Shown piece by piece: positions 29,208-32,555 of a stretch of DNA of 64,000 bases. The notes beneath the pieces were generated by a model. The model saw only the letters and a program-made list of their open reading frames with translations, was not told the DNA's origin and searched no databases. Both the position numbers and the translations under genes were made by a program. The DNA is taken from positions 62,001-126,000 of the forward strand of contig JADYZV010000046.1 of the NCBI GenBank assembly GCA_020852965.1, given 5' to 3'. This stretch comes from Pirellulaceae bacterium. GTDB lineage: Bacteria > Planctomycetota > Planctomycetia > Pirellulales > Pirellulaceae. The first letter of the stretch is position 1, and every line of letters begins with the position of its first letter.

Positions 29208-30257
29208 ATGTCCTCTTCCCGCGTTTGTTTCGACGTGTCGCGACAACTTGTTGCATTGTGTGTCGCAACGCTGGCTTGTGGGTTGGCAGCAGCGTCCTCA
29301 GTCGCGCAGTCAACTTCACCACAAAAAAGCGTGGCATCCACCAATGAGCCCGCCTCGGCGACTGCGGACATTGCGACACGCAACGCGGCTGGCCCGCATC
29401 GGTTGGAGTCGACCCATTTGCCGAATTTGGTTTGGATTCACCCACGAGTCTTGTCGGGCGGATTGCCCGAGGGAGCGGCGGCGTTTAACGAATTGGTTCA
29501 ATTGGGAGTGAAGACGATCATCACGGTCGACGGTGCCCAGCCCGATGTCGCGACGGCCAAGCAGTTCGGCTTGCGCTACGTTCACCTACCACATGGCTAC
29601 GATGGTATTCCAGAGAATCGCGTAGCGGAGTTGGCCAAAGCGGTGCAAGTGTTGGACGGACCGATTTACATTCACTGCCATCATGGCAAGCACCGCAGTC
29701 CGGCAGCGGCCAGCGTAGCGTGCGTGTCGGCAGGTTTGCTCCCAGTCGAACAGGCTGTCGCCGTGCTGGAAGTGGCGGGAACGAGTCCCAACTATCGCGG
29801 ACTGTTTCGCGCGGCGGCACAGGCCGAGCCAATCGCGTCCGAAGCGTTGCACGCTCTGGAAGTCGAGTTTCACGAGTTGTCGGAGGTTCCACCATTGGCC
29901 CAGGCAATGGTCGATTTGGAACATCTACATGACCAGCTCGTACAAACATCTAAAGCGGGGTGGTCGGTTCCAGCCAGTCAGGTTGACTCGGAGGTAGCCC
30001 ACCAAGTGCTACTGCTTCGCGAGCAATTTACCGAACTTTTGCGGAGCGAAGCGGCGCTTCAGCAATGCGACGAGTTTCGCGAATTGCTACAGGACTCCGA
30101 ACAGGCCGCGTTGGCTTTGGAGAGCGCACTACGGGTATGGAAGCCGACTCCAGGCAAGCTACCACCGGCAGAGTTCGATTTGTTTGGCAAACGCATTGCA
30201 GACAATTGCAAAGCATGTCATGTCAAGTATCGTGACAACCTAGCGTCCGCTCGCTGA
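29208..30257 (+). CDS. secreted dual-specificity-type phosphatase fused to cytochrome c'-like domain
   Basis: 349 residues. Residues 1-33 are a signal peptide (SRQLVALCVATLACGLAAASSVAQ). Residues about 65-200 form a cysteine-phosphatase domain: LPNLVWIHPRVLSGGLPEGAAAF, then GVKTIITVDGAQPD, then the P-loop HCHHGKHRS with Cys157 and Arg163. Residues about 215-349 are predicted helical (LAQAMVDLEHLHDQLVQ, VAHQVLLLREQFTELL, ALALESALRVW) and end in CKACH (Cys334, Cys337, His338), a C-terminal haem c motif placed as in class II (c'/c556-type) cytochromes. The protein would sit in the periplasm with one covalent haem. It is monocistronic. The substrate is unknown; the fusion suggests redox-linked dephosphorylation or a sensor. 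Confidence 0.8.
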   Translation: MSSSRVCFDVSRQLVALCVATLACGLAAASSVAQSTSPQKSVASTNEPASATADIATRNAAGPHRLESTHLPNLVWIHPRVLSGGLPEGAAAFNELVQLGVKTIITVDGAQPDVATAKQFGLRYVHLPHGYDGIPENRVAELAKAVQVLDGPIYIHCHHGKHRSPAAASVACVSAGLLPVEQAVAVLEVAGTSPNYRGLFRAAAQAEPIASEALHALEVEFHELSEVPPLAQAMVDLEHLHDQLVQTSKAGWSVPASQVDSEVAHQVLLLREQFTELLRSEAALQQCDEFRELLQDSEQAALALESALRVWKPTPGKLPPAEFDLFGKRIADNCKACHVKYRDNLASAR

Positions 30258-30855: not shown

Positions 30856-31461
30856 ATGGTGGAAAGCATGTCGACTACTACCAAGACCGTATTTACCACA
30901 GGCGAAGCGGCGAAGATCTGCAAGGTCAGTCAGCAGACAATCATTCGCTGTTTCGACAATGGCAGCTTGAAGGGATTTCGAGTCCCTGGAAGCCGCTTTC
31001 GGCGCATTCCGCGCGACCAATTGTTCTCCTTCATGAAGGACAATGGCATACCAACCGACGCACTCGAAAATGGCAAAAAGAAGCTACTGATCGTCGATGA
31101 CGAACAGGATTTGGTCGAGCTGATGGCCGACGCATTTGCTCGCGATGGTCGTTTCGAGATTCGCACAGCCAACAACGGCTTTGATGCCGGAATGCAGGTC
31201 AGAGAGTTCCGCCCAGACGTGGTGGTGCTCGACGTGATGTTGCCCGACATCAACGGTCGTGAAGTCTGTCAACGCGTCCGCAGCGATACCACGCTCGACT
31301 CCGTGAAAATCATCTGCATTTCGGGGATGATCGAGCAAGACAAAGTCGCCGATCTTCGCGCGGCGGGTGCGGATGATTTCGTGCAAAAGCCGTTCACGAT
31401 TGATCGCTTGATCGAGCGTGTCTGTGATCTGCTCGAAATCGACAAACCGGTAACTCACTAG
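30856..31461 (+). CDS. response regulator: HTH domain fused to receiver domain
   Basis: 201 residues. Residues 12-65 are an excisionase/MerR-like helix-turn-helix (TTGEAAKICKVSQQTIIRCFDNGSLKGFRVPGSRFRRIPRDQL). Residues 75-195 are a receiver: LLIVDDEQD with D81/D82, phospho-acceptor D126 in VVVLDVMLP, Ser156 in CISGM, and Lys178 in VQKPF. The order is reversed from common OmpR/NarL regulators, with the DNA-binding domain first. It is followed 41 bp later by a soluble histidine kinase, its likely partner. The regulon is unknown. The start ATG at 30856 is used; ATG 30868 (MSTTTK) is also possible. Confidence 0.88.
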   Translation: MVESMSTTTKTVFTTGEAAKICKVSQQTIIRCFDNGSLKGFRVPGSRFRRIPRDQLFSFMKDNGIPTDALENGKKKLLIVDDEQDLVELMADAFARDGRFEIRTANNGFDAGMQVREFRPDVVVLDVMLPDINGREVCQRVRSDTTLDSVKIICISGMIEQDKVADLRAAGADDFVQKPFTIDRLIERVCDLLEIDKPVTH

Positions 31462-31502: not shown

Positions 31503-32555
31503 ATGAGCTTGACTGCCGGGGCCTCTGAAATTGCCAAGTCGTTTTCGGAGGCTACCTGTCAAGCTCTATGTGCCCTGGTGCTGCGCAGCAGCGGGCTCTC
31601 ATGTTCGGCCACGCCTCCTGACGATTTTGTAGTTCGTTTGCGCAGTTTGGCAGAGACGGATGCGGCGCTAGCTGAATGGGTTGGCGTGATGTGTGATGGT
31701 CACTGTCAGCATTCGTCTGGTCGTTGCGCAGACCCGTGGCGAACGGTTGCTGCACAATTTCCGAAGTGGCTGATCGAAAGCGGGCCAGTCAGTGGGGACG
31801 ATGCTCGCCGCAGTTCAGCCTGGCAGCAGCTCCAAGCGCTGTGTCACCTTGTCGTTCGACTGCAGACGCTCGAGAGTCGCTTTACCAGCGAGTTGCATCG
31901 CCAAAAGCAGGAGGCGATCTATCAGTTCGCCTATGGGCTGAGTCACGAGCTGAATAACCCATTGGCGAATATCGCTACGCGAGCCGGTGTGCTTGCGCAG
32001 CAGGCGTCTCAGCCTCAGCACAAAATACTTTTGGAAGCGATCGTAGCCAACGCCATGCGCGGTTGCGAAATGCTGGGCGATCTGATGTTGGTCGCGCGCC
32101 CTCCGATACTTCAATACAAGTCCACGTGCATCGACGAACTGATCATTGCGGTGGTAGAGCAAGCGCGGCGCTGGGCCAGCAGCTTGGAAATCGAGATTAC
32201 GCTTGAAGTCGATTCGAAGCAAATTCTGCAGCTCGATGCTGTGGCAATGCGCGAAGCGTTGTGGGCACTGCTGCGCAACGCCTTGGAAGCCATGCCCAAT
32301 GGTGGAACCGTCAACGTGAGCGTCACCGATCTAGATACTTGCCGAGTATGCATCGAAATCGCCGACCAAGGGGGGAGCCTGAGTCGCGCAGCGCTGGAAT
32401 ATTGCTTCGATCCATATTATAGTGGTCGCGAGGCGGGACGCGGGCTAGGTTTGGGGCTCGCCAAAACGCTGAGAATCATCGAACTGCACCAGGGAGAATT
32501 GTCACTTACAAATCGTCCTGGCGGTGGAGCTATTGCGAGGATCGTCTTGAATTAG
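31503..32555 (+). CDS. soluble histidine kinase
   Basis: 350 residues with no membrane helices or signal peptide. Residues 1-125 hold no recognised sensor domain but contain several Cys and His (MCDGHCQHSSGRCADPW at about 62-79). The dimerisation helix carries His148 in YGLSHELNNPLANIATR, typical of NtrB/PAS-type kinases. The ATPase domain has the N box (LWALLRNALEAMPNGG), G1 (EIADQGG, shortened) and G2 (GRGLGLGLAKTL). It should phosphorylate the adjacent HTH-receiver protein in the cytoplasm. The Cys/His stretch could bind a metal or sense redox state, which is inference. Confidence 0.88.
   Translation: MSLTAGASEIAKSFSEATCQALCALVLRSSGLSCSATPPDDFVVRLRSLAETDAALAEWVGVMCDGHCQHSSGRCADPWRTVAAQFPKWLIESGPVSGDDARRSSAWQQLQALCHLVVRLQTLESRFTSELHRQKQEAIYQFAYGLSHELNNPLANIATRAGVLAQQASQPQHKILLEAIVANAMRGCEMLGDLMLVARPPILQYKSTCIDELIIAVVEQARRWASSLEIEITLEVDSKQILQLDAVAMREALWALLRNALEAMPNGGTVNVSVTDLDTCRVCIEIADQGGSLSRAALEYCFDPYYSGREAGRGLGLGLAKTLRIIELHQGELSLTNRPGGGAIARIVLN

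Follow-up and report, generated by a model that had tools for sequence, protein, structure and literature searches.

The gene at positions 29208-30257 of the forward strand of the window, i.e., the whole stretch of 64,000 nucleotides from a Pirellulaceae bacterium that was analyzed here, encodes a predicted exported protein in which a phosphatase-like domain is joined to a C-terminal haem-c domain. The architecture of this protein, by which we mean the fusion of phosphatase and haem domains, its conservation, its motifs and its range among the planctomycetes, is firm as a matter of sequence comparison. The first-pass annotation of this DNA did not know the pairing as a described system, and we found no description of a phosphatase-haem-c fusion in the open-licence literature, as represented by titles and the starts of abstracts (preprints and most subscription papers being outside the scope of that search). 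The case appears to be one of known domains in a new and widely kept architecture, with a possible coupling between them that is taken up below. The features to which the text refers are as follows.

29208..30257 (+), whole gene, 349 residues and stop, from the translation
29208..29309 (+), probable export leader, residues 1-34, hydrophobic, with the cleavage site placed by eye
29421..29825 (+), dual-specificity-phosphatase-like domain, about residues 72-206, from weak Pfam matches and from TpbA and DUF442 structures matched by profile
29673..29696 (+), P-loop HCHHGKHR, residues 156-163, with putative catalytic Cys157 (C157, G160 and R163 in 288/288 rows)
29826..29897 (+), linker, about residues 207-230, coupled to the phosphatase (K118-E223, Q147-H215, L149-F221)
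29898..30236 (+), class II-like haem-c helical domain, about residues 231-343, from PF01322, profile matches and couplings
29907..29909 (+), Met234, probable sixth haem ligand (280/280 rows)
30207..30221 (+), haem-attachment motif CKACH, residues 334-338, with proximal His338 (280/280 rows)

The signal peptide, P-loop and CKACH motif that the first-pass annotation had assigned to one protein of 349 residues are all present in the translation of 29208-30257 (+), in which the hydrophobic leader reads LVALCVATLACGLAAASSVAQS, the P-loop lies within IHCHHGKHRSP (residues 155-165) and the haem motif within NCKACHVKYRD (residues 333-343). From its leader, the product is predicted to be exported, either as a periplasmic protein or as a lipoprotein. 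A hydrophobic leader was likewise detected in 223 of 249 relatives, 88 of them with a lipobox pattern, by a simple scan that had no negative control.

Conservation of the fused protein

Residue conservation was counted in an alignment of 288 rows, consisting of the query and 287 distinct relatives from all loci. C157, G160 and R163 of the P-loop occur in every row, and the loop histidines are kept in most of them (H156 in 286, H162 in 283, H159 in 280 and H158 in 246 of the 288), as is K161 (198/288). The haem motif was counted over 280 rows, namely those in which the fused protein can be read in frame to its C-terminus. Within these rows C334, C337 and H338 of the CxxCH motif are invariant, R342 is present in 278, and a methionine, M234, is kept in 280/280 at a median distance of 99 residues (79-120) from the haem histidine. 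Conservation in 288/288 and 280/280 rows excludes a chance motif. The eight rows that were left out, all without CxxCH or M234, comprise four that run into contig ends (L133, L192, L193 and L194), one that is frameshifted (L225) and three divergent phosphatases without a haem motif (L347-L349). Loss of CxxCH in homologues that otherwise stay conserved, an outcome that the first-pass annotation had named as counting against its proposal, was looked for in the 288 rows and not found; haem-less fused homologues were sought among the same rows and there were none, L225 being explained by its frameshift, since its haem end (CVRCHQAYRD) is readable in another frame. Most of the rows had been fetched for matching both domains, and this selection does not account for the conservation of CxxCH, because every haem-less row below E 1e-40 in the phylum-wide search described below ended at the end of a contig. 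Trees of the phosphatase and haem halves agree with one another (r 0.71 over 241 rows, as against 0.09 for the best of 200 permutations): the halves share a long common history, and the fusion is an old one that has been passed down as a unit.

Distribution among bacterial genomes

With the single protein as the query, matches were obtained in 69 of the 196 genomes of the order, and inspection placed the fused protein in 58 of the 196, one of which (L058) has a loop that reads YCHHG. The 11 remaining matches were weak, partial or confined to the phosphatase, and the five of them that were fetched all lack the haem motif. A profile of 39 rows (A1) was used for the search of the phylum (392 genomes), in which it found some match in 227 genomes and, counted from rows below E 1e-40, the protein itself in 135. 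A search for the same domain pair across planctomycete genomes, as suggested in the first-pass annotation, found it widely. There are 136 rows below E 1e-40, of which 133 span both domains (including G389, after inspection) and the remaining three (G335, G385 and G404) end at contig ends. At the level of the class, some match was obtained in 344 of 397 genomes, lone domains counted. In the phylum of G606, whose record is titled Verrucomicrobiota, there was some match in 63 of 240 genomes and the fused form in just two of the 240, G606 itself and G847; the listed rows from that phylum otherwise match mostly in the phosphatase part, some over a short stretch only, and a few, in frames of roughly 130-157 residues, match just in the haem part.

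Among the best 80 of 500 confirmed relatives, a sample that leans to close relatives, the named genera and species include Rhodopirellula baltica, Stieleria, Neorhodopirellula, Rubripirellula, Botrimarina and Thalassoglobus. The named strains in this sample include Rhodopirellula baltica BR-MGV, Stieleria tagensis TO1_6 and Botrimarina hoheduenensis Pla111, and their possession of relatives makes the system testable. Two contigs, G749:C12 and G808:C121, each carry a haem-less phosphatase, about 200 residues long, in two adjoining copies. Two loci, L104 and L107, are titled Candidatus Kuenenia stuttgartiensis in their records; their contig coordinates are those of G1094 and G1005, which belong to the window's own class, and the titles look wrong.

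The phosphatase domain

The N-terminal domain is predicted to be a cysteine-based phosphatase of the dual-specificity type. It carries the HCxxxxxR P-loop of such phosphatases (HCHHGKHR, residues 156-163), and although the window protein itself falls short of the Pfam PTP-SAK model (19.9 bits against a cut-off of 27), the cut-off is exceeded by relatives, e.g., L190 (33.6) and L031 (29.9). In searches of the PDB with a profile, the best matches were to TpbA (2m3v, 1.4e-8; 4r0s, 1e-7), followed by a DUF442 structure (3gxg, 1.5e-6). Membership in the TIGR01244/DUF442 family of sulfur transferases was considered and rejected, the score being 24.2 bits (E 2.7e-5) against a curated cut-off of 85.85. 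A possible general acid, D132, lies upstream of the P-loop and is present in 209 of 288 rows; in some known members of the phosphatase family the general-acid Asp is dispensable, according to the available part of one report (PMC9038691). C157 is the sole conserved cysteine of the domain, C172 being present in 133 of 280 rows, and a thiol-disulfide switch was rejected as a family-wide mechanism for want of a second conserved cysteine.

TpbA (PA3885), the periplasmic dual-specificity phosphatase of Pseudomonas aeruginosa, is exported and has an HCxxGxxR loop, as does the window protein, in addition to being its best PDB profile match. The two differ in that the TpbA loop, HCKHGNNR, lacks the K-H that precedes the arginine here, in that Asp105 is proposed as the acid of TpbA whereas D132 is not strictly kept, and in that no haem domain is described for TpbA in the available part of its report (PMC4409338). 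A loop of the C-x-x-G-K-H-R type that is present in the window protein is also that of the PFA-DSP/Siw14 phosphatases. With the corresponding model, PF03162, the window protein scores 12.8 bits and does not reach the cut-off of 27; 14 of 64 relatives match this model weakly at E<=0.01. AtPFA-DSP1 is an inositol-pyrophosphate phosphatase without a WPD-loop acid, and its loop residues C150, K154, H155 and R156 fit those of the window protein, residue 153 being outside the comparison; here too the available part of the report (PMC9038691) describes no haem domain, unlike the situation in the window protein. The basic, histidine-rich P-loop suggests that polyanionic phosphate esters would suit the enzyme as a class of substrate.

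The haem domain and the linker

A search of the PDB with the single sequence of the haem domain gave nothing useful, whereas a C-terminal profile matched cytochrome c-prime (3vrc, 2.5e-5, the top match) and, over about 100 residues, b562-derived chains (5awi, 4.9e-4). Against Cytochrom_C_2 (PF01322), the window protein scores 12.8 bits with a cut-off of 26.5; in an alignment of 64 rows (A2), 47 members match this model at E<=0.01, and the curated cut-off is exceeded by L184, L190, L191 and L376. With the class II cytochromes (c-prime, b562 and c-556) the domain shares a C-terminal CxxCH followed by an arginine and a helical domain of about 110 residues; it differs from them in being fused behind a phosphatase. 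The likeness to b562 and c556 extends to a methionine about 100 residues before the histidine, and we take the helix-1 methionine of those cytochromes, which lies roughly at the position of M234, to be their sixth ligand. Local alignments with b562 place its methionine three residues off M234, so that the helix-1 register in which the two would correspond is suggestive. Cytochrome c-prime proper is not known to have an axial methionine. Because M234 is invariant in 280/280 rows, we read the haem as probably six-coordinate, with H338 and M234 as ligands, and as redox-active, and not as the open c-prime site of an NO or O2 sensor; the invariant methionine points to the six-coordinate b562/c556 subtype of a class II-like domain. 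What the first-pass annotation had called a cytochrome c'-like domain can stand as a class II-like one, and the same methionine speaks against the five-coordinate c-prime proper. The genome to which the window belongs has one partial ResB match above the cut-off (31.6 bits against 24.6), which makes the attachment of haem c plausible. A second class II cytochrome is found in the same genome, in an open frame of about 335 residues without a phosphatase domain (L198, at G000:C79).

Mean-field couplings were computed from 280 rows and 278 positions (effective number 246) and were compared with those from 20 coupling-free alignments simulated along the tree, which lead one to expect 0.4 chance pairs among the best 14. 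We placed no reliance on pairs beyond about rank 20, since the simulated alignments reach similar values. Within the haem domain, 247-263, 244-267 and 271-305 are among the best 14 pairs and 293-341 stands at rank 16; these fit successive antiparallel helices, as a weaker test than a structure model. The strongest coupling of all, K118-E223, joins the linker to the phosphatase, as do Q147-H215 and L149-F221, also within the best 14, and by these three pairs the linker appears to pack against the phosphatase. The pairs that join helix 1 of the haem domain to the phosphatase, V81-H241 (rank 21) and I105-V235 (rank 32), fall below the reliable range.

Domains added at the N-terminus

Extra N-terminal domains were found in nine of 20 long open frames (6/7, 3/4 and 0/9 by Pfam), and the remaining long frames without an extra domain may be spurious open frames. 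In one genus (L374-L376), an alkaline phosphatase (PF00245) stands directly before the phosphatase-haem module in one frame with a leader, and in another two loci of a single genus (L031 and L043) a sulfatase precedes the module. The other additions are an NPCBM domain (L051), a 3-keto-disaccharide hydrolase together with a GDSL hydrolase (L054) and, ahead of the module in the same frame, two transporters, i.e., a nucleoside transporter (L185) and a Na/Ca exchanger (L188). These few events would fit an enzyme that hydrolyses esters outside the cytoplasm, as the alkaline phosphatase and sulfatase cases suggest.

Proposed mechanism and alternatives

The best reading of this protein, which we hold tentatively and with somewhat less than even confidence, is that of an extracytoplasmic phosphatase coupled to the redox state of its haem. 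H338 and M234 would hold the iron of a class II haem-c helical bundle, a packed linker would fasten that bundle to the phosphatase, and the haem would swap single electrons with periplasmic carriers, i.e., with the redox pool. The redox state of the haem would then set the activity of the phosphatase by way of conformation, with the methionine coming on and off the iron as has been proposed for sensors of Geobacter; alternatively, the haem would keep C157 reduced. By either route, the hydrolysis of phosphate esters outside the cytoplasm would be tied to respiration. The Geobacter proteins GSU0582 and GSU0935 can be likened to the window protein in that they carry a periplasmic haem c for which control of output by redox-linked Met ligation is proposed, with Met release on oxidation as the signal (available part of PMC8396549); they differ in having a PAS-type fold and a chemotaxis output, as against a helical domain with a phosphatase here.

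A more far-reaching version, which we regard as doubtful, is that these proteins form a class of haem-wired phosphatases, extracytoplasmic enzymes whose P-loop cysteine phosphatase is gated directly by a His/Met haem c. Planctomycetes would then release phosphate (or another group) from esters outside the cell only while the electron transport chain is in a particular state, and in some lineages the module would serve as a redox-controlled unit on alkaline phosphatases, sulfatases and transporters. Whatever its function, this incorporation of a haem c in a cysteine phosphatase has been retained widely across a major environmental phylum, and the pairing could link extracellular phosphate release to the redox state of the cell. 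If the haem controls the phosphatase, the protein would provide a direct and testable link from respiration to phosphoester turnover outside the cytoplasm, and a case of cysteine phosphatase regulation without thiol-disulfide chemistry.

The alternative that survives best, which we nevertheless think unlikely, is that two independent functions lie side by side, the haem domain being an ordinary electron carrier or a docking module to which an exported enzyme is tethered. Planctomycete-specific cytochrome (PSCyt) domains, which are haem-c domains from the same bacterial group as the window protein, are known to occur in varied combinations with other domains (available part of PMC5615132), the phosphatase and haem parts are each also found alone, and some relatives carry the module C-terminal to unrelated domains, transporters among them. 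A PSCyt model is absent both from the listed matches of the window protein at E<=1 and from the 10 families matched by 64 relatives. Loose tethering would not require the coupling of the linker to the phosphatase, and it sits poorly with a fused form that is old and inherited as a unit and with a haem motif that no fused relative has lost.

It is improbable, in our estimate, that the P-loop cysteine carries out redox chemistry in place of phosphate hydrolysis, as a sulfur transferase or as an oxidase or reductase of sulfur, phosphite or arsenic oxyanions, and that the haem gives or takes electrons. The weak TIGR01244 match and the DUF442 structure 3gxg would fit such an activity, as would a general-acid Asp that is not strictly kept, and with no second cysteine kept the protein would have no built-in electron partner other than the haem. 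By profile, however, the closest relative is the phosphatase TpbA, and the loop is of the HCxxGxxR phosphatase type; moreover, the reactions of sulfur, phosphite and arsenic oxyanions need two electrons, whereas a single haem handles one at a time. Least probable of all is the gas sensor that the first-pass annotation had envisaged, in which an open-site cytochrome c-prime haem would bind NO or O2 and control the phosphatase: c-prime chains do top the C-terminal profile list, PF01322 is the cytochrome c-prime family and an axial Met that is released on oxidation, as proposed in Geobacter, could open the site (available part of PMC8396549), but M234 in 280/280 rows argues against an open site. 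Redox control of the phosphatase or electron transfer to it, which the first-pass annotation had also put forward, may apply.

Gene neighbourhood

Among 116 loci, the gene neighbourhood contains no neighbour common to most of them and no conserved operon. In 13 of the 116 loci, a HemN/HemW-like radical SAM gene is found no more than about 3 kb away. Eight of the nine radical SAM loci that share one gene arrangement belong to close relatives (L034, L035, L037, L038, L041, L042, L045 and L046), and L043 has a different radical SAM member at a distance of 179 bases. In L125, L126 and L130, there is a start-stop overlap between the end of the HemN/HemW-like gene and the phosphatase-haem gene, and in L131 a radical SAM gene with an uncertain start adjoins it. 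The best curated models for the HemN/HemW-like gene all score below their cut-offs. This neighbour is only a weak lead, because nearly every genome of the order has a relative of the gene (51 of 57 at E<=1e-60) and because in the genome of the window it is on another contig. In the window itself, about 600 bases downstream of the phosphatase-haem gene, there is a gene for a protein with HTH_17 and Response_reg domains (30856-31461, +), followed by one for a histidine kinase with HisKA and HATPase_c domains (31503-32555, +).
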